Below are positions 21-19,630 of a stretch of DNA of 21,221 nucleotides, one piece after another; position 1 is the stretch's first letter, and every line of letters starts with the position of its first letter. This stretch comes from a bacterium (lineage in GTDB: Bacteria; BMS3Abin14), in contig JALHUC010000002.1 of assembly GCA_022865845.1 (NCBI GenBank), forward strand, positions 1 through 21,221. The letters are read 5' to 3'. A program made the translations under genes and the position numbers. The notes under the pieces are model-generated. The model searched no databases and had not been told where the DNA came from. It saw only the letters and a list, made by a program, of their open reading frames with translations.

Positions 21-527
21 ATGTTGGAAAAGTTGACCAGTAGCGCGTCTGCAGCAGTGGAGAGCCCCGGTCCTGATCCGAAGATCGACCTGCGAGTCGC
101 GTCAGGAGCAGCCGAAATAGAGGCACACTTTAAGATACGCAGACAGGTTTTTGTGGAGGAGCACGGTCTTTTCGAAGGTACGGACCGTGACACCCATGAC
201 GACGAAGGGATCCATATCGTCGCCTGCCTGAGCGGGAAGATCGTTGGTGCCGTCAGGTGCTATCCGGAAGGTGAAGGAGTCTGGTACGGAGGGCGACTTG
301 CAGTCCATCCTGATTTCAGGAAATACGATCTGGGTGCCCGTCTTGTCCGGAAGGCTGTCGAAACCATGGAAGGCACTGCCGGTGTCACTCGTTTCCTTGC
401 CAATATTCAGATTCAGAATGTACGATTCTTCAAGAGGCTGGGATGGATCAGGATCGGCGAGCTTTTCCTGTACCGGGGAGTGCGTCACCAGGTCATGGAG
501 AAGGTCCTTGGCCGGTGTGCTGAATGA
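21..527 (+). CDS. GNAT N-acetyltransferase, MSMEG_0567 N-terminal / Sll0786-like family
   Basis: A 168-residue GNAT-fold protein expected to move an acyl group from acyl-CoA to an unidentified amine in the cytoplasm. Residues 38-60 (RRQVFVEEHGLFEGTDRD) and 125-142 (FLANIQIQNVRFFKRLGW) are the pattern I recognise from the nitrogen-starvation acetyltransferases of the Nit1 cluster (MSMEG_0567 N-terminal domain, Sll0786). Motif A lies at 90-109 (GGRLAVHPDFR, then KYDLGA). The usual Gly-rich pyrophosphate loop is weakened here, with only the second Gly kept, so CoA binding may be atypical. About 20 N-terminal residues precede the fold. The start has a GGAGG at 9-13, spaced 7 bases. The stop overlaps the OsmC start by 4 bases (ATGA), so the two are translationally coupled. 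An AIR-synthase-like gene, the usual partner of this family, lies eight genes downstream. Family assignment is good; the substrate is unknown. Confidence 0.88.
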   Translation: MLEKLTSSASAAVESPGPDPKIDLRVASGAAEIEAHFKIRRQVFVEEHGLFEGTDRDTHDDEGIHIVACLSGKIVGAVRCYPEGEGVWYGGRLAVHPDFRKYDLGARLVRKAVETMEGTAGVTRFLANIQIQNVRFFKRLGWIRIGELFLYRGVRHQVMEKVLGRCAE

Positions 528-919
528 AGGTCCAAGCAAGGTTCCTGGAAAACTACAAGTTCGAGTTAACCTCCGGAGAGTCTTCTATCATTTCCGACCA
601 GTCCCCGAAATACGGGGGCGACGGTGCCGGGCCCATGCCCAGCGAACTCTTCCTCTGGGCTATTGCCTCATGCATGGGTCAGGCCATCGTTCATATCAGT
701 GGGAAACTCCATGAGGAGATAGGCGAGCTGAGGCTGACCGTCGAGGGGATGAAACACCCCGAGGAGTTTAGATATTCCAGGATAATCATCAGAGTCCAGG
801 GCGATTGCCAGGGAGACCGTCTCAGGGAGATAGTAACAATAGCGAGCACTCACTGCTTCATCTCTAATTCTCTCAGGGATGACATCGAAATCGAGATAAA
901 GACAGGTATCGACACATGA
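524..919 (+). CDS. OsmC-like protein
   Basis: A 131-residue OsmC/Ohr-fold protein. The family reduces organic hydroperoxides or reacts with persulfides through two cysteines, and works as a cytoplasmic dimer. Both expected cysteines are present: C50 in the SELFLWAIASCMG segment on the central helix, and C111 in the STHCFISNSL segment. The length is close to the YhfA/OsmC family norm. It starts on the ATGA shared with the acetyltransferase stop, and its own stop (ATGA, 916-919) is shared with the next gene, so it is embedded in the operon and not a stray stress gene. That suggests it serves the pathway, for example by protecting thiols or removing a reactive by-product of the flavoenzyme, but this is inference. 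Whether it is OsmC, Ohr or the sulfur-handling YhfA branch cannot be decided from motifs alone. Confidence 0.88.
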   Translation: MKVQARFLENYKFELTSGESSIISDQSPKYGGDGAGPMPSELFLWAIASCMGQAIVHISGKLHEEIGELRLTVEGMKHPEEFRYSRIIIRVQGDCQGDRLREIVTIASTHCFISNSLRDDIEIEIKTGIDT

Positions 920-2319
920 CGGATCTCAACCAGGAAGTGAAGGTTGTTAACATCGGTTTGGAGGGTTTCTCCGACGAGCTGCGGTCCCTGGACGTTCCGG
1001 TTGTCCAGGTCCAGTGGCAGCCTCCCGCGGGCGGGGACAAGAGGCTCATCGGCGCTCTGGCCCGGCTCAGCGGCAGGAAATACGACAGGGCCAACGAGCT
1101 TACGGTGGCAAGGATGCTAAGAAGCCGTCCCATCTGGGTGGACGTGGACAGTGCCGGGAAGGTTATTCCTGGAATGCAGCCGAACCATATCCTGCATTCC
1201 GGCCCTCCAATCTCCTTCGAGGAGATGTGCGACCCGCAACAAAGGGCGGTGGAGGGTGCGGCAGTTTTCGAAGGGTGGGTTAAAAACAAGGCACAACTGA
1301 GAAAAAAGCTGCACAGTGGTGAACTGGTGCTCGCGCCCAACTACATCCTCAACAGCGTCGGACCAATGTGCGGGGTCATCACCCCGTCCATGGCAGTGAT
1401 CGAAACCCGGAACGCGGCTTTTCGGAACAGGTCATGGTCCACCTTCAACGAAGGCAAAGGGAACGTCCTCTGGATGGGGACCTACGATGACGGGACCATC
1501 GAAAGGCTGAAGTGGATGGCCACCGTCCTTGGCCCCGGGCTGAAGGAGGCCCTGAAGCACAGTAAGGGCGGGATCGACCTGTTCGGCATCCTTTCAGAGG
1601 GCACACAGATGGGAGACGAGGCCCACGCCCGGAGCGCCGCGTGCAGCTCCCTGCTGCTCCAGCGTCTCTACCCGCTGCTCCTGAAGACAAGCCTGGACAA
1701 GAAGACGATCCTGGAGATCGTGGAATTCATCATCAGCAACAACCATTTTTTCCTCAACCTGACCCTCACCGCCTGCAAGGTGACGGCCGATGCGGCCCAC
1801 GGGGTCAAGAATTCCACAATCGTTACGGGTATGAGCAGGAACGGCGTGGATTTCGCTCTCAGGGTGGGCGGTGCTGCCGACAAGTGGTTCATCTCCGGGA
1901 CCGCCCCCATGGACGAAGCCATATACTATTCAGGCTACTCCCTCGAGGATGCGGCCGGTGACATCGGCGACAGCGCCATCATCGAGACCGTGGGCCTGGG
2001 AGGGATGGTCATAGGGGCTGCCCCCACCATCAGTTCCTTCGTCGGTGGGACCATGAAGGACTCCCTGCAGGCCATGAAGTCGATGAAGAGCATATGCCAG
2101 GGAGTGAACCCGAAATTCGCGCCGGCGGCAGTGGACTTCATGTCAGCCCCTGTCGGCATAGACATCCGCAAGGTCATCAAAACCGGGGTCACGCCTATTA
2201 TCGACACCGGAGTTATCCACAAATCCTCCGGGATCGGCCAGATCGGCGCCGGTATCGCCAGGGCGCCCATGGGAGTGTTTGTCAAAGCCCTTAACTACAT
2301 GGAGAAAAACAGTGAATAA
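916..2319 (+). CDS. allG: DUF1116 protein, AllG/YlbE-like oxamate carbamoyltransferase subunit
   Basis: A 467-residue member of the DUF1116 family (E. coli YlbE, renamed AllG; about 420 residues there). In E. coli it acts with FdrA (AllF) and YlbF (AllH) in oxamate carbamoyltransferase (oxalurate + phosphate giving oxamate + carbamoyl phosphate). Recognition rests on the N-terminal DVPVVQVQWQPPAGGD segment, the central SVGPMCGVITPSMAV and DEAHARSAACSSLLL segments, the late APMGVFVKALNYME ending, and above all on the neighbours: carbamate kinase, FdrA and DUF2877 all follow. No signal peptide or membrane segment is evident. The start overlaps the OsmC stop (ATGA). The 3' end overlaps the carbamate kinase start by 8 bases. 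Substrate identity is inferred from E. coli; other ureido acids are possible. Confidence 0.9.
   Translation: MTDLNQEVKVVNIGLEGFSDELRSLDVPVVQVQWQPPAGGDKRLIGALARLSGRKYDRANELTVARMLRSRPIWVDVDSAGKVIPGMQPNHILHSGPPISFEEMCDPQQRAVEGAAVFEGWVKNKAQLRKKLHSGELVLAPNYILNSVGPMCGVITPSMAVIETRNAAFRNRSWSTFNEGKGNVLWMGTYDDGTIERLKWMATVLGPGLKEALKHSKGGIDLFGILSEGTQMGDEAHARSAACSSLLLQRLYPLLLKTSLDKKTILEIVEFIISNNHFFLNLTLTACKVTADAAHGVKNSTIVTGMSRNGVDFALRVGGAADKWFISGTAPMDEAIYYSGYSLEDAAGDIGDSAIIETVGLGGMVIGAAPTISSFVGGTMKDSLQAMKSMKSICQGVNPKFAPAAVDFMSAPVGIDIRKVIKTGVTPIIDTGVIHKSSGIGQIGAGIARAPMGVFVKALNYMEKNSE
2301..2304 (+). promoter_or_regulatory. Ribosome binding site fixing the carbamate kinase GTG start
   Basis: GGAG at 2301-2304 lies 7 bases before GTG at 2312. 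The open frame extends upstream to an ATG at 2279, but only the GTG gives a normal carbamate kinase N-terminus (VNKPVAVVAFGGNA) and has a Shine-Dalgarno at proper spacing. The site sits inside the last codons of the DUF1116 gene, implying coupled translation. Confidence 0.7.
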
Positions 2320-3262
2320 ACCGGTTGCAGTAGTAGCTTTCGGCGGAAACGCTATTTTGAATTCCAACGAGGACATGTCCTTCGAGACCCAACTGAAGAA
2401 CGCCCAGGAGACCTGCCGCCAGCTGCTGGCTATCCTGCACAAGAGGTACGAAATGGTCTTAGTGCACGGCAACGGTCCCCAGATCGGGAACCTGCTCTTA
2501 CAGTTTGAGAACGCGCGGGACCTCCTTCCCGTGCCCCCCCTCGACATGGCCGTCGCGTCGTCCCAGGGTCTCCTGGGGCACATGCTTCTCATCAGTATGC
2601 GCACGGTGCTGGAAGAAGAACGCCTCCAGAAGGAGGTGACCGCCATCCTCACCCAGGTGGTCGTGGACGAGAACGATCCCGCCTACCTGAAGCCCACCAA
2701 ACCCGTGGGGCCCTTCTACACCATGGAGCGAGCTGAGGAACTGAGGAGGGAGAAAGGGTGGCACATAGTGGAGGATTCCAATCGGGGTTTTAGGAGGGTG
2801 GTCTTTTCACCCCGCCCGAGGAAAATCCTCGCCCTCAACACCATCAAGCAGCTCCTCGAAGCTGGAACGATTGTCATCGCCTGCGGCGGCGGGGGGATCC
2901 CCGTGAACTACAAGACGGGGCAAGTCATAGGAACCGAGGGTGTCATCGACAAGGACTTCACCGCCTCCCTCCTGGCATACAACCTCAACGCCGAGCTTTT
3001 CATGATCCTGACCGGGGTTGATACTGTCAGCGTAGATTTCGGGAAATCCACACAAAGGTCGGTTGCCGAAATGACGGTGACGGAGGCCAAAGGGTGGCTG
3101 GAAGAAGGGCAGTTCCCCGCCGGCAGCATGGGTCCCAAGATCGCGGCCGCGGTGGAGTTCATCGAAAGGGGCGGCAAAGAGGTTATCATCGCCGGTACGA
3201 GGAATGTGGTGGAGGCCCTGAACCATGGCAAGTGCACCAGGATAATCGCCGATAAACAGTAA
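2312..3262 (+). CDS. arcC: Carbamate kinase (catabolic, AllK/ArcC-like)
   Basis: Carbamate kinase of about 316 residues, the usual family length. In this direction it converts carbamoyl phosphate + ADP to ATP, ammonia and CO2, so it is the energy-yielding step after the carbamoyltransferase. Visible family motifs with the GTG start as residue 1: AFGGNA at 9-14, VHGNGPQIGN at 51-60, SQGLLGH at 84-90, the ACGGGGIPV loop, DKDFTASLLA, TGVDTVSVDFGK, and the GSMGPKIAAAVEFIE C-terminal segment that binds nucleotide and phosphate. GTG is chosen over an ATG 33 bases upstream because of the ribosome binding site and because the extra residues are not family-like. It overlaps the DUF1116 gene by 8 bases and is followed after 22 bases by fdrA. 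E. coli has the same association (ybcF/allK beside fdrA-ylbE-ylbF). Confidence 0.96.
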   Translation: MNKPVAVVAFGGNAILNSNEDMSFETQLKNAQETCRQLLAILHKRYEMVLVHGNGPQIGNLLLQFENARDLLPVPPLDMAVASSQGLLGHMLLISMRTVLEEERLQKEVTAILTQVVVDENDPAYLKPTKPVGPFYTMERAEELRREKGWHIVEDSNRGFRRVVFSPRPRKILALNTIKQLLEAGTIVIACGGGGIPVNYKTGQVIGTEGVIDKDFTASLLAYNLNAELFMILTGVDTVSVDFGKSTQRSVAEMTVTEAKGWLEEGQFPAGSMGPKIAAAVEFIERGGKEVIIAGTRNVVEALNHGKCTRIIADKQ

Positions 3263-3284
3263 CACCTTCATCAGGGGCTAGCCC

Positions 3285-4784
3285 ATGTCATTCAAAACAA
3301 CCGTAAGAAAAAACCAGTACCATGATTCCGTCCGCCTGATGAACATCTCCAGGGAGGCCAGCTCTCTGGAAGGCGTGAGCAGGGTCCTGGCTCTCCTTGG
3401 AACGGAAGGCAACAAAAAGATCCTGAGAGACCTGGGATTCGCAGACGAAGCGGTGGAGGCCTCTACCCCCAGCGACTTAATCATCTGCGTGGAGGCTGGC
3501 AGTGATGGCGGTTTCGAAGCCGCTGTGCAGGAGGTGGATCGACTGCTGAACGAGGCCTCACACGCCTCATCGGAGCAGATGCCCGCCCAATCCCTCGACG
3601 AGGCCGTTCAGGAGATGCCCGACGCCAACTTCGCCCTTGTCTCCATCCCCGGAGAGTTCGCCAGGCTCGAGGTGACGGAAGCCCTGGAGAGGGGGCTGAA
3701 CGTAATGCTCTTTTCCGACAACGTCTCCATCGAGGACGAACTGTTCCTCAAGGATCTGGCCCTCAGCAAGGGCCTGCTCATGATGGGCCCCGACTGCGGG
3801 ACCGCCATAATCAACGGGGTGCCGCTCGCCTTCGCCAACGTGGTGCCCAGAGGGGGAATAGGGATCGTCGGAGCCTCCGGAACAGGCATCCAGGAGATCA
3901 CCTGCCTCATCGACAGAATGGGCGGAGGAGTTTCCCACGCCATCGGGGTGGGTGGTAGGGATCTGAGCGAGAAGATAGGCGGCAGAATGATGGTATCTGC
4001 CATCAGGATGCTTGGGGAGGATCCGGCCACTAAATCCTTGATCCTGATCTCCAAACCGGGAGCACCTGACTCAACCAGGAGGGTTCTCAGAGAGGCGCGT
4101 AAAACTGGCCTTCCCACGGTGGTCTGTCTCCTGGGGAAGGGTGAACTGCCCAGGGGAGGAAGGAGCCTCACCTTCGTGAAGTCCCTGGAGGAGGCAGCGC
4201 TGGCCGCCATGGGGGAAAAAACCTTTGCCGAACCCCGTTCCGAGGAACTGACCCGGCGTATCCGTGAGATGCCTGCCGGCAGGAAATATTTGCGCGGACT
4301 CTTTTCAGGGGGCACGCTCTGCTACGAGGCCCTTCTGCTCATGGATGGGGCCATGAAGGTCAAGTCCAATATTGGCTTTGGAGGAAGATTCAGCGGTAAA
4401 GCGACCTACAAGGGGCACTACTGTTTAGATCTGGGGAGCGACGAGTTTACTCAGGGACGGCCCCACCCCATGATCGATTCAACGCTGCGGCAGGAATACC
4501 TTGTGGATGCCTATCGGGATCCGAGCAGCAGGGTCATTCTCCTGGATGTGGTGCTGGGGTACGGTTCCACTGCTGACCCCGCAGGTGACATGGCGACCGC
4601 ACTGGTCGAGGCCAGGAAAACAGTGGCGGGGGACGGCCCCATCGTCCTGGCTCACGTTTGCGGCACCGAGGGGGATCCTCAGTCCATGGAGCTGCAGGAA
4701 GCTAAATTGAGGGAGGCAGGTGTGTTCCTCTTCCCAACCAACGCTGAAGCGGTTCGCGCCGCCCTGGACGCTTTTCAGGTTTAA
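3285..4784 (+). CDS. fdrA: FdrA (AllF), succinyl-CoA-ligase-like subunit of oxamate carbamoyltransferase
   Basis: A 499-residue FdrA-family protein, built like a succinyl-CoA synthetase alpha/beta fusion but dedicated to carbamoyl transfer in E. coli (AllF). Motifs seen: NVMLFSDNVSIEDE at 139-152, MGPDCGTA at 167-174, the Rossmann-like IGIVGASGTGIQE at 192-204, GVGGRDLSEKIGG at 221-233, and LILISKPGAP at 252-261. The C-terminal half carries a VILLDVVLGYG and VLAHVCGTEGDPQ pattern typical of the second CoA-ligase-like domain. It is slightly shorter than E. coli FdrA (about 555), mostly at the ends. AGGGG at 3273-3277 lies 7 bases before the ATG. Together with the DUF1116 and DUF2877 proteins it should form the oxalurate-cleaving complex; the substrate is inferred from E. 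coli. Confidence 0.93.
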   Translation: MSFKTTVRKNQYHDSVRLMNISREASSLEGVSRVLALLGTEGNKKILRDLGFADEAVEASTPSDLIICVEAGSDGGFEAAVQEVDRLLNEASHASSEQMPAQSLDEAVQEMPDANFALVSIPGEFARLEVTEALERGLNVMLFSDNVSIEDELFLKDLALSKGLLMMGPDCGTAIINGVPLAFANVVPRGGIGIVGASGTGIQEITCLIDRMGGGVSHAIGVGGRDLSEKIGGRMMVSAIRMLGEDPATKSLILISKPGAPDSTRRVLREARKTGLPTVVCLLGKGELPRGGRSLTFVKSLEEAALAAMGEKTFAEPRSEELTRRIREMPAGRKYLRGLFSGGTLCYEALLLMDGAMKVKSNIGFGGRFSGKATYKGHYCLDLGSDEFTQGRPHPMIDSTLRQEYLVDAYRDPSSRVILLDVVLGYGSTADPAGDMATALVEARKTVAGDGPIVLAHVCGTEGDPQSMELQEAKLREAGVFLFPTNAEAVRAALDAFQV

Positions 4785-4845
4785 GCGTCCCTTGCCGTGG
4801 AGCTGATCCGGCACACCGGCATATTCAAGGAAAACAGGAGGAAGA

Positions 4846-6294
4846 ATGAACCAGAAGGCCCGCGAACGTCTGGAGGAAAGCCTCGGGAATAAGGTTTCTT
4901 TCGATAAACAAATCCTCGCAGCCTATGACCATGACATAGGCGAAATGCCGGCCCTGGTCATGTCCATGGTCGACAACACCCCGGAGGCAGTGGTTGCCGC
5001 CGATACTGTGGATGACGTTCGGAACTGCCTTAACGCGGCTCGCGAGTTAGGGATCCCGGTGACCCCCAGGGGCCAGGCCAGTTCGGGGTATGGCGGAGCG
5101 ATCCCCACCAGGGGAGGCATCGTCCTGGACATGACCGGCATGAACCGCGTCATCAGTATGGACAAGGATAACCTTACCGTTGATGTGGAGCCGGGGGCGG
5201 TGTGGGATGAGCTGTCCCGGCAGCTCAACAAGTCTGGCATGGACAACTGTATTGTCCCCACCAGCGCCCCTTCTTCCACCGTGGGTGGATGGTTCGCCAT
5301 GGGCGGGGTGGGGCTGGGCAGCCTGGCCTACGGAAGCATCAGGGACGTAGTGCAGGAGATAGATGTGGTGGCCCTGGAGGGCGAAGTTGCGACCTTGTCC
5401 GGAGAGGAAATGGACCTGCACTACCAGACGTGCGGCATCCTCGGCGTCGTAACCAGGCTCCGTCTGACTTGCCGTATCGCCGAAGAGATGCGCCCCTTCG
5501 CCGTCGCCCTTTCGGACGCCGCTGCTGTGCAGGCGTTCTCCCAGGCGGCTTGCGAAGAACTGACACCATATGCCATCTCGGTCCACTCCCCGGGATATGT
5601 CGGGATGAGGAAGGAAATGGGTGAGGATGAGGCGGTGCCGGGGGACTCCTTCCTGGTGATAATTGCCATCCCCGTCGGGTCCTCCGACGAGGGCGCCCTG
5701 AGGAGGGTGGCCGTGGCTCACGGCGGAGAGGTCCTGGCTGATGAGATCGCTCATCACTCCTGGAACGACCGTTTCTATCCCATGCGCATCAAGAAGCTGG
5801 GACCGTCGATCCTGGTGGGCGAGTTCTACCTTCCCCTGGACAGCTTCAGCAGTGTGGTGGAGGAGATCCAGACAGATCTCCAAAGGGACCTGCTGGGAAT
5901 GGAGATCTTTGTCCTGAAGGGCGGACGGGTTGCTGTCCTGGTTTACATACTGGACGATGCTGGCAGCTTCTTTTACCAGTTCCGTATGGCCAAAGCCCTC
6001 AGGCCCGTTCGGGCCGCGGAACGCGGCGGTGGTTCCCTTTACACTGCCGGCCTGTGGTTTGCGTCCCGCTCGCGGGAGATACTGGGCTCGAAGAAGTACG
6101 ATGCGGTGACACGCCGCAAGAAGGTCGTCGATCCCAAAGGACTTCTCAATCCGGGGAAGATCGTTTCTCCCAGGGTGAGGTTCCTGCCTTTATTTGATGT
6201 CAGCACCATGGTGGATCTTTCGTCAAGACTTGCGTCTCCGTTAGCGAAGCTCCTCATCTACAAACGGCCTCACAGGGAAAGGGTGGAAAGCTAA
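4846..6294 (+). CDS. GlcD-like FAD-binding 2-hydroxyacid oxidoreductase subunit
   Basis: A 482-residue FAD-linked oxidase of the GlcD / D-lactate dehydrogenase type. The PCMH FAD-binding domain spans roughly 45-220, with the pyrophosphate loop TPRGQASSGYGGA at 73-85, GIVLDMTGMNRV at 91-102, the VEPGAVWDEL strand-helix at 114-123, and the SSTVGGWFAMGGVGLGSLAYGS segment at about 143-164. The C-terminus ends in the family signature for the FAD cap (DAVTRRKKVVDPKGLLNPGKIV). AGGAGG lies just upstream of the ATG. The Fe-S partner starts 1 base after the stop (TAA, one base, ATG). Family members oxidise glycolate, D-lactate or other 2-hydroxy acids. In this operon, ureidoglycolate is the attractive substrate (inference), giving oxalurate for the FdrA complex. 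Membrane or quinone coupling would go through the partner. Confidence 0.92.
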   Translation: MNQKARERLEESLGNKVSFDKQILAAYDHDIGEMPALVMSMVDNTPEAVVAADTVDDVRNCLNAARELGIPVTPRGQASSGYGGAIPTRGGIVLDMTGMNRVISMDKDNLTVDVEPGAVWDELSRQLNKSGMDNCIVPTSAPSSTVGGWFAMGGVGLGSLAYGSIRDVVQEIDVVALEGEVATLSGEEMDLHYQTCGILGVVTRLRLTCRIAEEMRPFAVALSDAAAVQAFSQAACEELTPYAISVHSPGYVGMRKEMGEDEAVPGDSFLVIIAIPVGSSDEGALRRVAVAHGGEVLADEIAHHSWNDRFYPMRIKKLGPSILVGEFYLPLDSFSSVVEEIQTDLQRDLLGMEIFVLKGGRVAVLVYILDDAGSFFYQFRMAKALRPVRAAERGGGSLYTAGLWFASRSREILGSKKYDAVTRRKKVVDPKGLLNPGKIVSPRVRFLPLFDVSTMVDLSSRLASPLAKLLIYKRPHRERVES

Positions 6295-6295
6295 G

Positions 6296-7477
6296 ATGGG
6301 AAATAATAGGGCTGGATCTTCCGGAAAGACCAACATAACCGGCGACCTATCGTATTCCGTTGATACCTGTGCCAGGTGCGGGTTCTGCAAGCCGGTGTGC
6401 ACCACTTATCCCTTCGGGAACGGGTTCGAGGCTTTCTCGCCCCGTGCCAAGGTGCACTACATCAAACAGGTACTGGAGGGCAAACAGAAGCTGACCCCCG
6501 AGTGGGTGGATCGCCTCTACCAGTGCACCACATGCGAGAGGTGCGTGGAGAACTGCCAGACCGAGATATCCCTTGTCCACCTCTGGGAGGCGCTCAGGGC
6601 CGAGACGGTGCGGCAGGGGATAGGTCCCATGCCTATGCACGCCAAGATGCGTGAGGCTGTGGATGAGTACAACAATCCCTACGGCGAACCAAAAGAGGAG
6701 CGGAATAAATGGATGCAGCCCGATCACAGCCCCACAGAGGGGGCCGAACTCCTTGTTTTTGGAGGCTGCACAGGCTCCTACCGGATGACGGCCATGCTCA
6801 GGACCGGGGTCACAATCCTTCAGCGAATGGGCATACCCTACGCCTACGCGGGGCCGAATGAGATGTGCTGCGGGAGTCCCATTCTCCGGACGGGACAGCT
6901 TGAATCGGCCAGCCGCCTCATCGGCACCAACCTGGACCTTTTCGAGGAAATGGGTATCAAGGAGATCGTCTCACCATGCAGTGGTTGTTCCAAGACTATT
7001 AAGCATGACTATCCGAAATGGGCTGAAAAACTCAACAAGAATTGGTCGGGCAAGGTCCAGCACTTTTCTGAGCTATACGTCGAACTGCTTCGTGACGGAA
7101 GGATAAAGCCCACCAGGAGGATCGAGAAAACGGTCACTTATCACGACCCTTGCCACCTGGGGCGGGCACAGAGGATCTTCGACGAACCAAGGGAGATCCT
7201 CAGGGCCATCCCCGGTCTCAAGCTGGTGGAGATGGAGTTTAATGCTGAAAACGCCCGGTGTTGTGGCGCCGGGGGCGGTGTCAAAGGTCACTATCCTGAG
7301 ATGGCGGCGCAGATTGCGGACAAGAGGGTCCTGGAGGCTGTGGAAACAGGTGCGGATTTACTCGTTACGATGTGTCCCTTCTGCCAGGCGAGCTTCACCC
7401 AGTCTATTGATAAGCTGGGCGTGAATATTGAACTCATCGGTGTAGAGGAACTGCTCCTCCAGTCCGTGGAGGGTTGA
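6296..7477 (+). CDS. GlcF/HdrD-like iron-sulfur (4Fe-4S, double CCG domain) protein
   Basis: A 393-residue electron-transfer partner of the preceding flavoprotein. Two ferredoxin-type clusters are visible: C25xxC28xxC31xxxC35 and C77xxC80xxC83xxxC87. Two CCG domains follow, the first with GGC (156-158), CCGSP (191-195) and CSGC (228-231), the second with HDPCHLG (283-289), CCGAGGG (322-328) and CPFC (360-363). In GlcF, LldE and HdrB/D relatives these bind Fe-S clusters and hand electrons to quinone or another carrier. No transmembrane helix is seen, so it is probably peripheral. It is separated by a single base from both the FAD gene and the DUF2877 gene, so the redox pair is inserted inside the carbamoyltransferase set. 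It could alternatively feed an HdrD-like thiol/disulfide acceptor. Confidence 0.94.
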   Translation: MGNNRAGSSGKTNITGDLSYSVDTCARCGFCKPVCTTYPFGNGFEAFSPRAKVHYIKQVLEGKQKLTPEWVDRLYQCTTCERCVENCQTEISLVHLWEALRAETVRQGIGPMPMHAKMREAVDEYNNPYGEPKEERNKWMQPDHSPTEGAELLVFGGCTGSYRMTAMLRTGVTILQRMGIPYAYAGPNEMCCGSPILRTGQLESASRLIGTNLDLFEEMGIKEIVSPCSGCSKTIKHDYPKWAEKLNKNWSGKVQHFSELYVELLRDGRIKPTRRIEKTVTYHDPCHLGRAQRIFDEPREILRAIPGLKLVEMEFNAENARCCGAGGGVKGHYPEMAAQIADKRVLEAVETGADLLVTMCPFCQASFTQSIDKLGVNIELIGVEELLLQSVEG

Positions 7478-7478
7478 G

Positions 7479-8339
7479 ATGGAAACAGGTTCCATCGGAT
7501 GCGCCGTCTACGAAGCGGCGAAATCAGGAATTGAGGGGAAGGTAACCTCCGTTTTTGAGCGCTCCGCTCACCTCGAGTCCGGGGCGATGATAATCACCCT
7601 CGGCGGCCTCGACCTGCCCGCCCACCCCTTCACCATCCGCTGTCCCAACCCGCCCGGAAGGTTGCGCTCTGGACAGGAGTTCATGCTGGGGGAGGGGACC
7701 CTTTCCATGCCGGGTTCCTGCGTTCTGGAAGTCCGGGATTACGAAGTCTTCAGTCCTGCCATGAAGGTCGAGACAATGGCCGGAACCCAGGAGATGCTCC
7801 GTGCCCTTCAGGCTGCAAGGATCGTTGTCGCCACCACCTCCTTCAGGGATGGTTTTCACTCTTTCGTCATGGGAGGGCCCATGCACGGTATGATAACCCA
7901 GGCAGTCCTTCCCCTCATCCAGCGGATGGGGGATGCCCTTTGCGACAGGGATTGGGAGGGGATGGTTTCAGTGGGGACTGACCTTGGCGGGGTGGGCGAG
8001 GGCCTGACCCCTTCCGGGGACGACTACCTGGTGGGGCTCACGGCTGCACTCCATTTTCATCGTGCCAGCGGAGGAATCGGGCCCGACGCGCGCCATCTCG
8101 AAGCCCTGGCGGAGAGGGCCGCAGAACGTACGTCGCCTTTCTCCGGCCAGAACATCAGAGCCGCCGCCGGCGGCTGGGTTGCCGATGTGGTTGCCCAATG
8201 GCTCACTTCCCTTCATCTGGGCGACTTCGAGGGGGTGAAGGTGGACACCCGCGCCCTTCTCTCCTTCGGCCACTCGAGCGGTGTGGACACCTTCGCCGGG
8301 ATGGTGATGGGGCTTTCATCCGTCCTGGAGGAGAGATGA
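7479..8339 (+). CDS. allH: DUF2877 protein, AllH/YlbF-like oxamate carbamoyltransferase subunit
   Basis: A 286-residue DUF2877 protein (E. coli YlbF/AllH, about 270 residues). The family signature GEGLTPSGDDYLVG at 173-186 and the C-terminal GHSSGVDTFAGM at 264-275 are clear, and HSFVMGGPMHGMI lies at 127-139. It has no transmembrane segment. With FdrA and the DUF1116 protein it completes the three-subunit oxamate carbamoyltransferase described in E. coli. Here it is separated from fdrA by the FAD/Fe-S pair, an order that differs from the compact fdrA-ylbE-ylbF arrangement. It begins 1 base after the Fe-S gene and ends in an ATGA overlap with the AIR-synthase-like gene, so coupled expression is likely. 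Confidence 0.9.
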   Translation: METGSIGCAVYEAAKSGIEGKVTSVFERSAHLESGAMIITLGGLDLPAHPFTIRCPNPPGRLRSGQEFMLGEGTLSMPGSCVLEVRDYEVFSPAMKVETMAGTQEMLRALQAARIVVATTSFRDGFHSFVMGGPMHGMITQAVLPLIQRMGDALCDRDWEGMVSVGTDLGGVGEGLTPSGDDYLVGLTAALHFHRASGGIGPDARHLEALAERAAERTSPFSGQNIRAAAGGWVADVVAQWLTSLHLGDFEGVKVDTRALLSFGHSSGVDTFAGMVMGLSSVLEER

Positions 8340-9301
8340 AAGAACGAGCCCGCCTTTCTGAGCTGGTGGAGTACCTCAGAAACTCTCAGCAGTTCCTTCA
8401 CAAAAAGGAGATATTCTCCGTCACGGGAGGGGTGGGGTCCAGGGTCTCCGAGGGGGGAATCCTCAACGGTGACGACGCCGCAGCTATCCCTGACGGTGAT
8501 GGATTCCTGCTGTTTGCCGCTGAAGGGGTCCTGCCGTCCCTGGTGAGGTCCGACCCCTTCTTCGCGGGAAGGAGCGCGGTGCTGGCCAACGTGAACGACA
8601 TCTATTCCATGGGTGGACGTCCCCTGGCCATCGTGGATGTGATCTGTGCCGAGGAAAGTGCCATGGCCTCGGAGATCTACCGTGGCATCGTGGATTTTTC
8701 CCGGCGCCTTCAGGTTCCGGTGGTCGGGGGACACACCCATTTGGATGAAGGTCCGCCATCGGTTTCTCTCGCGATTCTGGGCAGGGCCAAAAAGATCATA
8801 ACAAGTTTCGGTGCCTGTCCCGGCCAAAGCCTGGCCCTCTTGTACAACCCCGATGGGAAATGGATGAACGAGTACGGGTTCTGGAACTGTCTGCCGGGCA
8901 GGACCGGTTCCGAACAGGTAGGGGATCTGGAGCTCCTCCCCCTGGCTGCCGAAGCTGGTTTTGTGACCACGGGTAAGGACGTGAGCATGTCCGGCATAGC
9001 CGGGACCGCACTCATGATGGTGGAGGCCTCGGGAGTGGGCGCTGAGATAGACCTGGATAGGGTCCCGGTCCCCGACGGGATCCAACTGGACCGGTGGCTG
9101 CTTGCCTACAACTCCTTCGGGTTTCTGCTGGCGGTGGAAGACAGGCATTGGGAGAACCTCGTGGATATGTCGGTTTCGCGTTCGTTGGAATTCCTGCGGA
9201 TCGGGACAATCATTGAGGGGTCAGAGCTCGTCCTGTCCAGAGGGGGGCAGAGTGAGGTGCTGTGGGACTGGGCGAAGGAGCCGTTCCTTGGGTTCAAGTG
9301 A
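8336..9301 (+). CDS. AIR-synthase-related (PurM/SelD/ThiL superfamily) protein, Sll0787-like
   Basis: A 321-residue PurM-like ATP-binding protein. Superfamily features are GDDAAAIP at 45-52 (metal and ATP phosphate binding), the NVNDIYSMGGRPLAIVD segment at 85-101, and VVGGHTHLD at 129-137. The sequence around FAAEGVLPSLVRSDPFFAG (60-78) resembles the Sll0787 family rather than true PurM, HypE or SelD, and no SelD-type reactive Cys/Sec loop is present. Such proteins usually activate an amide or carbonyl oxygen with ATP. The start is set by the ATGA overlap with the DUF2877 stop; a longer frame exists upstream but its residues are the antisense-like shadow of that gene. In cyanobacteria and mycobacteria this family is paired or fused with the GNAT family found at 21-527. 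The reaction is unknown. Confidence 0.88.
   Translation: MKERARLSELVEYLRNSQQFLHKKEIFSVTGGVGSRVSEGGILNGDDAAAIPDGDGFLLFAAEGVLPSLVRSDPFFAGRSAVLANVNDIYSMGGRPLAIVDVICAEESAMASEIYRGIVDFSRRLQVPVVGGHTHLDEGPPSVSLAILGRAKKIITSFGACPGQSLALLYNPDGKWMNEYGFWNCLPGRTGSEQVGDLELLPLAAEAGFVTTGKDVSMSGIAGTALMMVEASGVGAEIDLDRVPVPDGIQLDRWLLAYNSFGFLLAVEDRHWENLVDMSVSRSLEFLRIGTIIEGSELVLSRGGQSEVLWDWAKEPFLGFK
9275..9280 (+). promoter_or_regulatory. Ribosome binding site for the methyltransferase-like gene
   Basis: AAGGAG at 9275-9280 lies 7 bases before a TTG at 9288 and 22 bases before a GTG at 9303. Spacing favours the TTG, which would overlap the preceding gene by 14 bases. The GTG has no clear Shine-Dalgarno of its own. 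Confidence 0.5.
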
Positions 9302-10076
9302 CGTGAGCCGAAAGGGACCATCCTGGGGGATCGAGAGCCGGTTCTTCCTGCCTAACGAAGACGCAGGGATGGTGCGTGAGGCGATCTGCTTGCTGGAAAG
9401 CGATCCGGTCTCGGCGGTTTTTGTAGGTGGTTCAGGGCTCCTGGTCGCGGAGGTGGCAAGGTCACTGCCCGAGACGTCCAGGGCCACATTTGTGGACATA
9501 TCCTCCTCCCAGGTCGAGTACTTCAGGGAGTTTCTGGAGGCCCTGGAGGCGAGCGACTCTCCGGAGCAGCTCAGGGGGTGGTTTTCAAAGACGGTCTATC
9601 CGCGGCTTAAGGACCACTTTCTGGAGGTCCGAAATAGCTTGTATAGAGAGGACCAGGTCTTCATGGCGATGGAGTCGCTCTTCCAGCTGAAGTTCTTTTT
9701 CGAGGCAGAGCCCTTCCATCAGACAAAGAGAGCGATGAGGTCTATCGAGGTGGTGCATGATGACATCGCCAACTTCCTGGAAAGAGGGGTGCGGAGGCAC
9801 GATTTTGTTTACCTGAGCAACGTGCTGGACTATATTCCGCCCGAAATGCTGGATAGTCTTCTGGGCCAGTGCAAGTTGACAGATGCGGCGGTCTATGCGC
9901 TGCTAACGGAAGCATGCGGGGACCGTGAAGCCGTGTTCGGCGCCACTGACCGTGCCGGCTACACTGTGCACCCCGGGAGTGCTGAACTCTCGGCCAGGAA
10001 CAGAGGGCTCGGGTCCCGGACGCTGGATCGACCCTGGAACCGGAAGGGCGAGATCATGGTGCTTGTTCCTGGATAG
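9288..10076 (+). CDS. SAM-dependent methyltransferase-like protein of unknown role
   Basis: About 262 residues from the TTG, or 257 from GTG 9303. I do not recognise a named family. Counting from the GTG, residues 37-47 (AVFVGGSGLL) resemble motif I of class I SAM-binding folds and ATFVDIS (61-67) resembles motif II with the ribose-binding acid D65. A later DFVYLSNVLDYIPPEML segment resembles the motif IV region of methyltransferases, or of the BtaA-like 3-amino-3-carboxypropyl transferases (DUF3419). The long linker between motif II and this segment, rich in aromatic and acidic residues, is unusual. There is no signal peptide or membrane helix. The upstream part of the open frame overlaps the AIR-synthase gene in another frame and is not real coding. 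Close coupling to the operon implies a role in the same pathway. Coding status is firm; function is weak, and the start is uncertain. Confidence 0.8.
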   Translation: MGSSDVSRKGPSWGIESRFFLPNEDAGMVREAICLLESDPVSAVFVGGSGLLVAEVARSLPETSRATFVDISSSQVEYFREFLEALEASDSPEQLRGWFSKTVYPRLKDHFLEVRNSLYREDQVFMAMESLFQLKFFFEAEPFHQTKRAMRSIEVVHDDIANFLERGVRRHDFVYLSNVLDYIPPEMLDSLLGQCKLTDAAVYALLTEACGDREAVFGATDRAGYTVHPGSAELSARNRGLGSRTLDRPWNRKGEIMVLVPG

Positions 10077-10112
10077 GGTTTCCGGGGATAGGGTATCCGG
10101 CCGAAGAGGCCG
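10070..10112 (+). repeat. Short tandem repeat and small hairpin after the methyltransferase-like gene
   Basis: Two 15-base units (10070-10084 and 10085-10099) match at 13 of 15 positions around GGATAGGGT. They lead into a 5-bp stem (CGGCC 10098-10102, GGCCG 10108-10112) and a repeated GCCGAAG. It lies at the end of the gene and the start of the 178-base gap before the transporter. There is no T-run, so it is not a classical terminator. The rest of the gap up to 10254 shows nothing I can identify, apart from the ribosome binding site. Confidence 0.45.
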
Positions 10113-10254
10113 AAGTCGCTGTTCTTCAGGTGTCTTAAAGCGATTTGCGGTCCCTCCAAAGGGGTGGCCCAGAGTGTCGTGGTAAAGAGGACAACAAGAT
10201 GGTGATAGAGGGATGAGTTTCTCCCTGGTCAGCCAGCAGGAGAGAGGAAGTTCG

Positions 10255-11244
10255 ATGAAAAACAGGCTTGTTTTGGTTGCCCTCACAGTGGGGGCAATGA
10301 TGTTGGCATTCTCCGCATGTAACCGGTCTTCCCCAGTTAAGGGTGCTGCGCCAGAACCGGTGAGGATGGCCTACCTTCAGAATGACATCCACCATCTTGC
10401 CCTCTGGGTTGCCCTGGAAAAAGGGTTTTTCCAGGAGGAAGATGTTGAGGTGGAGATAGCAGGAATATTCAGGGCAGGGCCGGAAGTGATGAGTGCTTTC
10501 GTTGCCGGAGCTCTGGACATGGCATATGTAGGGGAAGCCCCCACAACTTTTGCCGCCGCTAACGGGACCGCCGATGTGAAGGTGGTAGCACAGGTTAACA
10601 CCGAGGGCTCGGCTCTGGTCGTATCGACTGGGCCAGAGGCGATAACTCGGGTTTCAGATCTGAAGGGAAAGACCATCGGGGTGCCCGGCCACGCTACCGT
10701 TCAGGATTTTCTAGTCAAGAAGGCGCTCGTGAAGGCCGGGATCGATCCCTCTAACGTCAACATTCTCATCATCAAGCCCCCCGAGATGATAAGCGCGCTG
10801 CGAACGGGCCAGATCGACGCCTTCATCGCCTGGGAGCCGTACCCGGCCAAGGCCTTCGAGATGGGAGTGGGCAGAAATCTGGCCACCTCAAAAGACATCT
10901 GGGCCGACCACCCATGCTGCGTGCTTGTCACCGACTCGACCTATCTCAAGTCCGATCCTGAAAAGGTGAAGAAGGTTCTCAGAGCCCACGTCAGGGCAAC
11001 CGAATATATCGGTGACCACCCCGAGGAGGCGGTCCTCATCGGGGTCAAGTACACAGGCATGGACGAAGCTTCGGTCCGGCGGGCCCTCCAGTCCGTGACT
11101 TACACCTACGTTCCCAGCGTGGAGGGAGAGATGGAATATGTGCGCTTCCTGTCGGACCTGGGATATATTACCGTCGACGACCCTGAGGCCTTCGTCTCCA
11201 ACCTTATCGTTGGGGAGTTGGTGGATAAGATAGGAACCAGATGA
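10255..11244 (+). CDS. ABC transporter substrate-binding lipoprotein (SsuA/TauA/NMT1-like)
   Basis: About 329 residues. The N-terminus (MKNRLVLVALTVGAMMLAFSAC) is a lipoprotein signal: basic start, hydrophobic stretch, then a FSAC lipobox with the lipidated Cys at 22. The mature part has the periplasmic binding fold of the nitrate/taurine/sulfonate type: VRMAYLQNDIHHLALWVALEKGFFQEEDVEVEI near the start, then AGALDMAYVGEAPTTFAA, LKGKTIGVPGHATVQDFLVKKAL, and ALRTGQIDAFIAWEPYPAKA. ATG 10255 is preferred to an ATG 42 bases upstream because GAGAGGAAG (10242-10250) lies at the right distance and the signal peptide begins there. The stop shares ATGA with the permease. The ligand cannot be read from sequence; by context a ureide, hydantoin-like or nitrogen-rich organic acid is plausible. 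Confidence 0.93.
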   Translation: MKNRLVLVALTVGAMMLAFSACNRSSPVKGAAPEPVRMAYLQNDIHHLALWVALEKGFFQEEDVEVEIAGIFRAGPEVMSAFVAGALDMAYVGEAPTTFAAANGTADVKVVAQVNTEGSALVVSTGPEAITRVSDLKGKTIGVPGHATVQDFLVKKALVKAGIDPSNVNILIIKPPEMISALRTGQIDAFIAWEPYPAKAFEMGVGRNLATSKDIWADHPCCVLVTDSTYLKSDPEKVKKVLRAHVRATEYIGDHPEEAVLIGVKYTGMDEASVRRALQSVTYTYVPSVEGEMEYVRFLSDLGYITVDDPEAFVSNLIVGELVDKIGTR

Positions 11245-11996
11245 GAGGAAAGCGGCTCATTCCGCCCCTCGTAGCCATTGCCGTCTGGCAGATCATTACA
11301 ACGGTGGGGGGGGTTCCATCCTACAAGTTACCATCCCCCCTTCAGGTGCTTGGTGGCTTGAAGGACCTGGCTGTGGTGGGCCTTCCGCCGGGGCATCTGC
11401 TGCACACTCACGCCCTGTACAGCCTCAAGAGGGTCTTCCTGGGCTACTCCCTGGCGGTCTCGGTGGGAATACCCCTCGGGATAGCGGTGGGCTGGTCCAG
11501 GAGGGTTCGTTTCGTGGTGGAACCGTTCATCGAACTGCTGCGGCCCATTCCGCCCCTGGCGTGGATACCCATCGCCATCCTCTGGTTCGGCATCGGCATC
11601 AAATCCGCTGCTTTTATCATCTTTCTTGGAGCGTTCTTTCCAATCCTCCTCAATACCTCAGCGGGAGTCCTGGCGGTGGACCCCCTGCTCATCGAGGCAA
11701 TGAGGACGCTAAACGGCAAGCCCAGGGATATTATTTTTAAGGTGCTCATACCCGGTTCCATACCCTCCATCATAACCGGTATGAGGATCGGAGTGGGCCT
11801 TGGCTGGATGACCCTGGTGGCGGCCGAGTTCTCGGGGGTCAAGCAGGGTTACGGACTGGGTTACATGATAATGACGGCGAGGGACATTCAGCGTCCGGAC
11901 GAGATCCTCGCCGGGATGTTCTTCATCGGTGTCGCGGGGTTTGTCATCGACGGGTCACTGCGGCTATTGGAAAAAAGTCTGATCAAATGGCGATAG
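11241..11996 (+). CDS. ABC transporter permease (SsuC/TauC-like)
   Basis: A 251-residue inner-membrane permease of the BPD_transp_1 family with about six hydrophobic segments. The cytoplasmic EAA loop that contacts the ATPase is visible at roughly residues 150-190 (LIEAMRTLNGKPRDIIFKVLIPGSIPSIITGMRIGVG). The RPIPPLAWIPIAILWFGIG segment at about 101-119 is characteristic of the nitrate/sulfonate/taurine subfamily. It starts in the 4-base overlap with the lipoprotein gene and is followed after 16 bases by the ATPase. It presumably works as a homodimer with the two neighbours. Confidence 0.95.
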   Translation: MRGKRLIPPLVAIAVWQIITTVGGVPSYKLPSPLQVLGGLKDLAVVGLPPGHLLHTHALYSLKRVFLGYSLAVSVGIPLGIAVGWSRRVRFVVEPFIELLRPIPPLAWIPIAILWFGIGIKSAAFIIFLGAFFPILLNTSAGVLAVDPLLIEAMRTLNGKPRDIIFKVLIPGSIPSIITGMRIGVGLGWMTLVAAEFSGVKQGYGLGYMIMTARDIQRPDEILAGMFFIGVAGFVIDGSLRLLEKSLIKWR

Positions 11997-12012
11997 AGGG
12001 CAGAGTATTTAT

Positions 12013-12768
12013 ATGGCGGTGAATCTGAAACTATCCAGGATAACGAAAACCTTCCCCGAGAACGGCTCCCTCAGCCAGGTGCCGGTTCTGGACAACCTCG
12101 ACTGCATTATCGAAAGCGGGCAGTTCTTCTCCATTGTCGGCCCCAGCGGCTGCGGCAAGACCACCCTGCTGAGGATAATAGCCGGTCTGGAGAAGGCCTC
12201 GGAGGGGCAGATCCTCCTCAACGGTGACGCCATAACGGACAATGACCGACGGGTGGGGCTGGTGTTTCAGGAGTTCGCCCTCTTCCCCTGGAGGACTGCT
12301 CTCCAGAACATCGAGATAGGCCTGGAGATCAACGGTGTCCCCAAAGCCGAAAGACGTGAGGAAGCCCTGAAATACGTGCGGGAGTTCGGACTGGAAGGCT
12401 TTGAGAACACCTTCCCGAAGATGCTGTCGGGTGGGATGAAGCAGAGGGTCGCCATTGCCCGCACCCTTATATCCAACCCGGAGGTCGTTCTGATGGACGA
12501 GCCCTTTGGCTCTCTGGACAGTAAATCACGCATCGATATGCAGAATTTTCTCCTGGATGTCTGGGAGCAGCGGAAGATGACGGTGGTGTTCGTCACCCAC
12601 AGCGTGGACGAGGCTGTCTACCTGGGTGACAGAGTGCTGGTCCTGGGCAAGCGGCCCTCCAGGATAATGGAAACCTTCGATGTGGAGATATCCAGGCCTC
12701 GGGATCGGGCAAATCCTGCCCTGTTGGAAATGAGGGAGAGGATCTTCGGGCTGTGTGCGAGGGCATAA
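12013..12768 (+). CDS. ABC transporter ATP-binding protein (SsuB/TauB-like)
   Basis: A 251-residue ATPase with a complete motif set: Walker A GPSGCGKTT at 43-51, the Q-loop in GLVFQEFALFPW, the signature LSGGMKQRVAIA, Walker B VVLMDEPFGSLDS, and the H-loop VFVTHSVDEA. This matches the nitrate/sulfonate/taurine importer class and the preceding permease and lipoprotein. No strong Shine-Dalgarno is seen near the ATG (an AGAGGG lies about 15 bases upstream), so translation may depend on the upstream gene. It is the last gene of the + strand operon; a hairpin-rich element begins 18 bases later. Confidence 0.96.
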   Translation: MAVNLKLSRITKTFPENGSLSQVPVLDNLDCIIESGQFFSIVGPSGCGKTTLLRIIAGLEKASEGQILLNGDAITDNDRRVGLVFQEFALFPWRTALQNIEIGLEINGVPKAERREEALKYVREFGLEGFENTFPKMLSGGMKQRVAIARTLISNPEVVLMDEPFGSLDSKSRIDMQNFLLDVWEQRKMTVVFVTHSVDEAVYLGDRVLVLGKRPSRIMETFDVEISRPRDRANPALLEMRERIFGLCARA

Positions 12769-12786
12769 CGATACAATTTTGATAAC

Positions 12787-12943
12787 CTCGCAAAAAGTCT
12801 CTTCGAGCCGTTTTGCAAGGCGGTCACGCCTTGGCGTGATCCCTTTTCTCACGAAGTGAATCCGCCCCACGCCGCAGGCGTGGCCCCCACCCCAGTCCCG
12901 CCGATGGCGGGACTGCTTGATGGACTTTTTGCGAGTCCATCAA
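12787..12943. repeat. Hairpin-rich intergenic element bounded by inverted repeats
   Basis: A perfect 13-bp inverted repeat bounds the element: CTCGCAAAAAGTC at 12787-12799 and GACTTTTTGCGAG at 12923-12935. Inside are successive stems: TCACGCC/GGCGTGA around 12827-12842, CCACGCC/GGCGTGG (12867-12873 and 12877-12883), and a 10-bp CAGTCCCGCC/GGCGGGACTG (12893-12902 and 12906-12915). The right end forms a 10-bp stem, TTGATGGACT (12917-12926) with AGTCCATCAA (12934-12943). No coding frame is credible here. It may end transcription of the transporter operon, or be a copy of a dispersed non-autonomous repeat; copy number cannot be judged from one window. Confidence 0.7.
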
Positions 12944-12998
12944 TTTGGCCCAGGGACCGTAGTGTTCGCACCGGATGACTGTTAGAGGGCAGGATGAA

Positions 12999-13637: not shown

Positions 13638-13699
13638 ACCATCCTCCCTCGACAGTGCCCAGTCGATCGATTTCCTCCGCCCTTCGCACTGAACTTCAA

Positions 13700-13714
13700 G
13701 ACACTAGACACCAG
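13700..13714 (+). repeat. Short direct repeat, left copy flanking the AcuI-like gene
   Basis: GACACTAGACACCAG here recurs as GACACTAGAAACCAG at 14881-14895 in the same orientation (14 of 15 identical). The two copies bracket the quinone reductase gene and its terminator. They look like fragments of a dispersed intergenic word repeat. Confidence 0.5.
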
Positions 13715-13776
13715 CCACCAGATTCTTTATTCTGTTTTCCCACTAAAATGATCGTAATCGTAAAGGAGACACCCCA

Positions 13777-19364: not shown

Positions 19365-19377
19365 TGGCTCCCTGTTC

Positions 19378-19555
19378 TAGCCCGCACTTCTCACCAGCCT
19401 TCTACTGCGGCGGATACGGGCATGTCTCCTGCGTTGCGCTCGGTCGGGCTCCTCGACGTAGTGTCAACTACGCCTGCGGGGCCCTCGGTCGCGCGCCTTG
19501 TATCCACACCCGTCTACACCGCCTCGCGACGAACCCTGATGAGAAATGCGGGCTA
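19378..19555. repeat. 178-bp long imperfect palindrome with 16-bp terminal inverted repeats (MITE/REP-like)
   Basis: TAGCCCGCACTTCTCA (19378-19393) and TGAGAAATGCGGGCTA (19540-19555) are inverted copies matching at 15 of 16 positions. The axis is a hairpin, CGTAGT (19457-19462), loop GTCA, ACTACG (19467-19472), almost exactly in the middle, and the sequence between ends and axis is also partly self-complementary (CGCTCGGTCGGGC-type words against CGACCGAGGGCC). Both ends carry TA. No coding potential is credible. The shape fits a non-autonomous mobile repeat or a large REP-type element inserted between the DUF47 and pit genes. Confidence 0.72.
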
Positions 19556-19630
19556 GGATCTTTCAGTAAAAGCTGCATGTTCAAGTTTTGTAACATCCGG
19601 TGCCTGAATATCTAACTGCAGTAGCATCAA

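Follow-up and report, generated by a model that had tools for sequence, protein, structure and literature searches.

A putative nitrilase-free form of the Nit1C gene cluster joined to a transcarbamylase and carbamate kinase module, mainly in sulfate-reducing bacteria

We analyzed a 21,221-nucleotide stretch of bacterial DNA (lineage BMS3Abin14; assembly GCA_022865845.1, contig JALHUC010000002.1, positions 1 to 21,221; "the window"), of which positions 21 to 12,768 carry 13 genes of an operon. The best reading of these genes is that they belong to a nitrilase-free variant of the nitrilase gene cluster Nit1C, joined to an energy-yielding outlet for carbamoyl groups, and form a sigma-54-controlled nitrogen scavenging operon. 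The architecture of the cluster is well supported by comparative sequence evidence; from it, we infer the reactions of the pathway, their order, and the substrate, which would be a ureide, a nitrile, or a cyanide-derived compound. As described by Podar et al. (PMC1199592), Nit1C consists of seven genes, including NitB, NitD (radical SAM), NitE (GNAT), and NitF (AIRS); it occurs only with some of the subfamily-1 nitrilases, its full complement of seven genes is preserved, and no gene had an experimentally supported role at the time. In Pseudomonas CECT 5344, the cluster has a divergent sigma-54 regulator, NitA, and is needed for cyanide assimilation (PMC11049912). So far the Nit1C core has been known only together with a nitrilase, and the nitrilase-free form with a transcarbamylase appears to be new: we found no description of Nit1C genes lacking a nitrilase or accompanied by DUF1116 or FdrA in the open-access literature (titles and abstract openings, among the matches listed; subscription work lies mostly outside this scope). 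That four genes are kept while nitrilase, NitG, and NitH are dropped shows which proteins make up the functional core; a possible product of that core is suggested by the carbamoyl outlet. The variant also offers sulfate reducers as a test bed for Nit1C and places the recently discovered three-subunit transcarbamylase in a second setting, outside allantoin metabolism.

The window holds two of the four Nit1C proteins. A NitE-type GNAT N-acyltransferase of the MSMEG_0567/Sll0786 family (21..527, + strand; TIGR04045, 129 bits against a cut-off of 68) shares 48-58% identity with the 12 other members seen in clusters of this type, and a NitF-type AIR-synthase-like protein of the sll0787 family lies at 8336..9301 (+; TIGR04049, 331 bits against 321). 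The contig begins 20 bases before the GNAT gene, and the operon is cut by this edge. In a sister genome (G005), the preceding block encodes NitB (TIGR04044, 218 bits against 110), an Amidohydro_2 protein that we call AmdH, and the radical SAM protein NitD (TIGR04043, 428 bits against 304), with a sigma-54 activator beside them on the opposite strand. The window's own genome (G000) has the activator, NitB, AmdH, and half a radical SAM gene at the edge of another contig, C399, where NitB scores above its cut-off and NitD, being half a protein cut by the contig edge, scores below. Judging from the sister genome's arrangement, contigs C399 and C274 would be neighbors, and the window reads as the right-hand portion of an operon with 16 or more genes. 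The variant thus has NitB, NitD, NitE, and NitF together (TIGR04044, TIGR04043, TIGR04045, and TIGR04049). The sequence-only reading of the window had called the operon self-contained, which fails on the three further genes and the divergent activator beyond the contig edge; the GNAT and AIRS proteins that it took for extra enzymes turn out to be Nit1C proteins, with the nitrilase exchanged for another hydrolase.

We compared 15 genomes carrying the AmdH type with 8 plasmid clusters of the nitrilase type, using tblastn on the fetched stretches. AmdH was present in 15/15 of the former and 0/8 of the latter, and nitrilase in 0/15 and 8/8, respectively. NitG (MSMEG_0570) and NitH (MSMEG_0569), searched with Caballeronia queries, were each found in none of the 15 and in 7 of the 8; since these queries also missed Methylocystis, where an FAD oxidoreductase and a small protein are annotated at the NitG/NitH place, divergent forms could escape them. 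No subfamily-1 (Nit6803) nitrilase lies between NitB and NitD on the fetched stretches of any of the 15 genomes (on C399 of the window's genome, AmdH stands there), and AmdH occupies this nitrilase place in 14 of them, preceding NitB in Candidatus Anammoxibacter. Among 247 Desulfovibrionaceae genomes, the best nitrilase match anywhere reached 40% identity, whereas the other seven Nit1C nitrilases match the Caballeronia query at 70-84%; one genome with NitB (G102) has a nitrilase relative at 38% on another contig. AmdH had no match in a collection of 72,556 plasmid records; NitB (MSMEG_0572) matches occur in 515 of them, 374 of these being from Klebsiella. The variant resembles Nit1C in its four shared proteins, its divergent sigma-54 activator, and the order NitB-hydrolase-NitD-NitE. 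It differs in having an Amidohydro_2 protein in the nitrilase slot, with nitrilase, NitG, and NitH not found, in adding a transcarbamylase, a carbamate kinase, GlcDF, OsmC, a methyltransferase, and an ABC importer, and in its hosts, which are mainly sulfate reducers. Of additional note, NitD and NitE read as a single fused protein in four Desulfovibrionaceae loci (L006 18218-19801, L029 1139-3037, L030 1724-3304, and L031 6139-7722).

For the phylogenetic trees, rows whose coverage fell below 45% (NitB, NitD, NitE, NitF) or below 75-80% (AllG, FdrA) and a partial second AllG of locus L046 were dropped beforehand. The trees of NitD, NitE, and NitF separate the AmdH and nitrilase types with 100/100 support. 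In the NitB tree, the Methylocystis NitB, which comes from a nitrilase-type cluster, groups with the NitB of our cluster at 100/100, so that the two labels do not each fall on one side of a branch. This NitB is encoded on the Methylocystis iwaonis plasmid NZ_CP143315.1 beside AllG- and FdrA-like genes, a likeness to our cluster; in contrast to it, the plasmid retains the nitrilase and gave no match to AmdH, carbamate kinase, GlcDF, the methyltransferase, or the ABC importer in the 40 kb read. The Methylocystis locus (L020 5263-23667) combines a nitrilase-type Nit1C with AllG, a 640-aa FdrA relative, and OsmC, which bridges the two Nit1C types, and adjoins genes annotated as cytochrome ubiquinol oxidase and DUF2474. 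Because this nitrilase-type cluster carries an AllG that is sister to the AllG of our cluster, while its NitB joins our NitB, NitB and AllG are associated with each other in two distinct Nit1C contexts.

The same genes, in conserved order, recur across other bacterial lineages, which makes the gene set more than a chance assembly. With the methyltransferase as a probe, we found the block in the sister genome and methyltransferase relatives in 9 named loci: six (L005-L010; Desulfovibrio and Solidesulfovibrio) hold most or all of the block, two from rumen Desulfovibrionaceae (L011, L012) are short contigs holding parts of it, and that of Candidatus Anammoxibacter (L004) holds only AIRS and the methyltransferase, the remainder of the cluster being on another contig. 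Since these two genes form an isolated pair there (9042-10762), apart from the rest, the arrangement suggests that AIRS and the methyltransferase work together. The position of the NitB block varies: it precedes AllG in G005, Anammoxibacter, Dv101, Dv132, Rum105, and Rum106, and presumably in the window's genome; in seven Desulfovibrionaceae (Dv99, Dv100, Sol102, Dv103, Dv104, Dv263, and Dv186), it lies behind the ATPase and the activator, and the Dv214 contig is too short to place it relative to AllG. A chimeric contig was considered and rejected, as the block recurs in other lineages. Confinement to a single genome, the test that the sequence-only reading had set beforehand for its gene set, was likewise rejected: the set recurs in G005, Desulfovibrionaceae, and Candidatus Anammoxibacter.

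A survey of the 247 Desulfovibrionaceae genomes, searched without the methyltransferase, found NitB above its cut-off in 8, four of them previously seen. Strong AmdH matches occurred in exactly the same 8 genomes (Fisher p 3e-15), and 14 others had weak, partial AmdH matches only. AllG was present in 15 genomes, namely 7 of the 8 with NitB and 8 of the 239 others (Fisher p 5e-9; both p values are too small because of shared ancestry). In the 7 genomes, NitB and AllG lie on one contig within 20 kb; in the eighth (G214), NitB is on a 6.7-kb contig without AllG, and no AllG was found elsewhere in that genome. The association of NitB, AmdH, and AllG is thus not a by-product of the route by which the loci were found. 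The system is rare and patchy, since NitB was above its cut-off in only 3 of 386 genomes sampled at random across the domain, two of them from the window's own family. Of 12 genomes from the window's phylum, 2 carry the system and both congeners lack it; a search of 98 genomes turned up the methyltransferase in 2 (the window's own and G005), and in the class of Anammoxibacter, NitB was found in 1 of 75. AmdH itself has 821 homologues, some of which, among the 120 listed, reach 55-60% (e.g., Dadabacteria, Chloroflexota, Desulfobacterota); at E 1e-50, none occurred outside the window's family in the 386 sampled genomes.

The putative outlet consists of three transcarbamylase subunits and a carbamate kinase, all on the + strand: an AllG-like subunit (DUF1116) with an N-terminal segment of about 50 aa (916..2319; PF06545, 240 bits), an ArcC/AllK-like carbamate kinase with a putative GTG start (2312..3262; TIGR00746, 360.4 bits against 358.3), an AllF/FdrA-like subunit (3285..4784; PRK06091, 493 bits against 433; 41% identity to E. 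coli AllF), and an AllH-like subunit (DUF2877; 7479..8339; PF11392, 72 bits against 25). All three subunits are thus present in the window, with ArcC between AllG and FdrA. In E. coli, AllF-AllG-AllH was biochemically shown to interconvert oxalurate plus Pi and oxamate plus carbamoyl phosphate, and this oxamic transcarbamylase requires three genes, AllH included (PMC11326118). The carbamoyltransferase and carbamate kinase module claimed by the sequence-only reading is real by family. Our cluster shares with E. coli allFGHK the three subunits and the carbamate kinase but differs in that its AllG forms a separate clade, in that it stands among Nit1C genes without allantoin genes, and in the place of the segment of about 50 aa: the segment changes gene between lineages, being the C-terminus of FdrA in E. 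coli and the N-terminus of AllG here (window 916-1068). In the AllG tree, the 12 rows from the cluster form a single clade with 100/99 support that excludes E. coli AllG, the AllG of a Leclercia plasmid, and nine other Desulfovibrionaceae sequences; its sister, on a long branch, is the Methylocystis iwaonis AllG (96/92). In the FdrA tree, the cluster forms one group (99/95), and long branches leave Methylocystis unplaced. AllH lies between GlcF and AIRS in 9 of the 12 loci spanning that place, and also follows GlcF in Anammoxibacter.

With this module in hand, plain ureide catabolism has to be considered: a ureide or hydantoin would be imported, AmdH would open or trim it, GlcDF would replace AllD (ureidoglycolate to oxalurate), and AllFGH with ArcC would finish, the Nit1C-type proteins processing side groups or serving the enzymes. 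The known oxalurate chemistry of AllFGH (PMC11326118) speaks for this, and GlcDF is a plausible O2-independent stand-in for AllD. The AllFGH-ArcC module would also serve other ureide pathways, because of two further contexts in which it occurs. On a Leclercia plasmid (L040 1746-9387), AllH-AllF-AllG-carbamate kinase stands beside a ring-opening amidohydrolase and a nucleobase symporter; this Leclercia/Citrobacter-type cluster is like ours in placing AllFGH and the kinase as an outlet behind another hydrolase, and unlike it in the identity of that hydrolase and of the transporter and in lacking any annotated Nit1C gene across the 15 kb that were read. In nitrifiers, allFGHK is reported next to biuret/triuret hydrolysis genes (PMC12625717), likewise a non-allantoin setting; it differs in its biuret hydrolase context, and the available part of that paper does not report Nit1C genes alongside. 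Against ureide catabolism, a comparison with 21 window proteins gave no match to E. coli AllD (E 1e-3), none of the families called in the window is of the allantoinase type, the AllG clade is apart from those of E. coli, Leclercia, and the nine other Desulfovibrionaceae, and the conservation of four Nit1C genes with the module is left unexplained. We consider this explanation unlikely. The ureide import route proposed from the window's sequence fares accordingly: neither an allantoinase- nor an allantoate hydrolase-type family was called there, and the upstream genes place the operon with Nit1C, a cluster linked to nitriles and cyanide. Of that proposal as a whole, the carbamoyltransferase and carbamate kinase module and its recurrence hold, and the self-contained ureide route lacks support.

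The evidence on regulation points to nitrogen supply. We scanned for sigma-54 -24/-12 sites (11 scored positions) upstream of NitB, or of AmdH in Anammoxibacter, with 500 single-base shuffles as a control; Dv101 and Dv214 were left out. Matches of at least 10/11 positions were present in 11 of 13 loci, roughly 65-100 bases before NitB, with 11/11 in the window's genome and G005, and such scores were reached by 0-0.8% of the shuffles. Anammoxibacter (8/11) and Rum105 (none, in only 220 bases) fell below the threshold. Sites before AllG in four Desulfovibrionaceae loci lay at differing distances and were left unused. Because -24/-12 sites and an adjacent activator occur together, these results support sigma-54 control of the operon. 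When the Pseudomonas NitA was compared with the plasmids, the matches listed (10) were general sigma-54 regulators.

Based on these findings, we propose the following scheme for the nitrilase-free Nit1C variant. Together with sigma-54, the operon's own GAF/AAA+ activator would respond to nitrogen or substrate stress by switching on nitB-amdH-nitD-nitE-osmC-allG-arcC-allF-glcD-glcF-allH-nitF-mt-ABC, and the importer would take up a small anionic or N-rich substrate. NitB (DsrE-like), NitD, NitE, and NitF (an ATP-dependent AIRS fold), aided by OsmC and the methyltransferase, would convert or carry the substrate. AmdH, standing in the nitrilase's place, would hydrolyze an intermediate, and GlcD-GlcF would oxidize it independently of O2, with an N-carbamoyl compound of the oxalurate (N-acylurea) type as the product. 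The AllFGH-like complex could then phosphorolyze this compound to carbamoyl phosphate, from which carbamate kinase would make ATP, NH3, and CO2. That the induction step and the two final steps are right, with the Nit1C core on the same pathway, has in our judgment an even chance.

Conserved residues fit these assignments. AmdH keeps an HxH, further His, and an Asp in 13 rows (mean identity 83%), which we take to be metal ligands as in its superfamily, and this suits a metal-dependent hydrolase or lyase; its predicted model is of poor quality (pLDDT 64). NitD keeps CX9CX2C and a C-terminal CX2CX2C, NitF keeps GDD, ND, GGH, and KD-S residues in 21 rows, and NitB has an invariant Cys in 19 rows, around which its profile weakly matches a DsrE-like structure (3mc3, E 0.0034). 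An earlier tentative assignment of NitB to a YchN-like fold (PMC1199592) is in line with this match.

Another possibility is anaerobic use of cyanide or nitriles, in which the Nit1C core would capture a cyano group (e.g., as an adduct, or as a protein thiocyanate on NitB) that is hydrated to a carbamoyl group and phosphorolyzed to carbamoyl phosphate, with no nitrilase hydrolysis. Formally, this reverses the carbamoyl-to-cyano chemistry of HypF and HypE, and HypE is a relative with the AIRS fold. In its favor, the shared genes belong to a cluster required for cyanide use by Pseudomonas, whose NitA is also a divergent sigma-54 type (PMC11049912); the oxidase and DUF2474 genes that adjoin the nitrilase-type clusters of Methylocystis, and likewise of Acetobacter, are read as a cyanide-insensitive oxidase; and a sulfate-reducing consortium with Desulfovibrio degrades cyanide according to a review (PMC5778177), whose available part does not name the genes. 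On the other side, none of the cluster's enzymes has a known action on cyanide or nitriles, the carrier role of NitB depends on the weak profile match and the tentative fold assignment (PMC1199592), and HCN needs no importer. We regard this route as quite unlikely. A broader idea, to which we give similarly low credence, is that the Nit1C core may be a general machine that captures one C-N unit, derived from cyanide or a nitrile, and whose outlet is exchangeable: aerobes would use a nitrilase, whereas an amidohydrolase, a transcarbamylase, and carbamate kinase would carry the unit through carbamoyl phosphate to ATP in anaerobes. If true, it would be the first anaerobic route that conserves energy from cyanide or nitriles.

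The same genes could instead build something. Radical SAM, GNAT, AIRS, and methyltransferase proteins are common in small-molecule biosynthesis; together with GlcDF, they might make a small molecule such as a metal chelator, carbamoylated by carbamate kinase and AllFGH and retrieved by the importer. Several Nit1C proteins are annotated "biosynthetic process," and the window's methyltransferase (9303..10076, +; putative GTG start), which has no Pfam or NCBIfam match above cut-off, is predicted to have a class I SAM-dependent methyltransferase fold with ovothiol/ovoselenol N-methyltransferases among the best-scoring folds. Biosynthesis is nevertheless rather improbable, as the 13 genes include no exporter or ligase-type backbone enzyme, the transporter is of the import type, and the sigma-54 sites and "nitrogen starvation" families indicate nitrogen supply.

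Several points weigh against a nitrilase-free Nit1C variant feeding a carbamoyl outlet. To our knowledge, no member of the cluster has a known activity, and the importer's family binds many unrelated ligands. Because AllF, AllG, and AllK are only 39-41% identical to their E. coli counterparts, and the AllH alignment with E. coli covers about 105 residues (32% identity), the complex may use a carbamoyl acceptor other than that of the E. coli enzyme. AllH is absent from the GlcF-AIRS place in 3 of the 12 loci (Dv132, Dv101, Rum105): in Dv132, it is relocated behind the ATPase (PF11392, 74.5 bits), the stretches fetched for Dv101 yielded no AllH, and in Rum105, the contig ends there. The Methylocystis placements rest on long branches, its FdrA being unplaced, and in Anammoxibacter, AIRS and the methyltransferase sit on a contig separate from the cluster, with no importer in 37 kb of the cluster's contig. 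OsmC is a further case. The window's OsmC-like protein (524..919, +; PF02566) has two Cys (C50 and C111 of the aligned piece), both kept in at least 95% of 11 rows, and OsmC occupies its usual position wherever the stretch from GNAT to AllG was read. In Dv132, Rum105, and Rum106, it is divergent (Pfam 34, 20, and 19 bits against a cut-off of 27.5) and lacks one or both Cys, and in Dv132, an OsmC-like domain is fused to the N-terminus of AllG in a single open frame of 586 aa (L029 3047-4807). Because of this divergence, Cys loss, and fusion, OsmC in these three loci would be no peroxidase and may instead serve next to AllG in a structural or binding function.

The remaining genes of the operon are also on the + strand. 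A GlcD-like FAD oxidoreductase subunit (4846..6294; PF01565, FAD_binding_4; the glcD model stays under its cut-off) and a GlcF/TfrB-like subunit with 4Fe-4S and double CCG features (6296..7477; two stretches of PF02754, and PF13183) precede AllH. The ABC importer comprises a substrate-binding lipoprotein of the NMT1_2/SsuA type (10255..11244, the frame also being open from 10213; PF13379 and TIGR01728, SsuA_fam), with binders of nitrate, bicarbonate, sulfonate, taurine, and pyrimidine among its PDB relatives, a permease (11241..11996; PF00528, BPD_transp_1), and an ATPase (12013..12768; PF00005, ABC_tran), the final gene of the conserved block. All 13 reported frames are present, densely packed on one strand, and each translates without an internal stop; every protein but the methyltransferase passes a curated family cut-off. 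The tight coupling and four ATGA overlaps (at 524, 916, 8336, and 11241) reported earlier were confirmed; the accompanying count of eleven enzyme genes and two transporter subunits needs correcting to ten non-transport and three transporter genes. AllG and ArcC overlap by 8 bases if ArcC starts at GTG 2312. The other junction gaps are 22, 61, 1, 1, and 1 bases, with 16 before the ATPase and, assuming a start at ATG 10255, 178 before the binding protein (its signal is read as lipoprotein-like).

To the right of the ATPase, a weak terminator-like hairpin (12822..12841, +), of which one was found against 0.9 expected by shuffling, is followed by CCTTTTCT; no RNA family of Rfam scored above cut-off within the window. 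The next two genes (12975-14778), a metallo-beta-lactamase-fold protein and a YhdH/AcuI-type reductase, had no match on the fetched stretches of the sister genome, where the conserved block also stops at the ATPase. Farther on, the - strand encodes a 615-aa protein with no Pfam or NCBIfam match (14914-16761), a pilin-like protein with a prepilin-type N-terminus that overlaps a 208-aa protein with paired CxxC motifs and no family match (17039-18015), and a phosphate transporter (PHO4) with a PhoU-like DUF47 gene (18111-20334).

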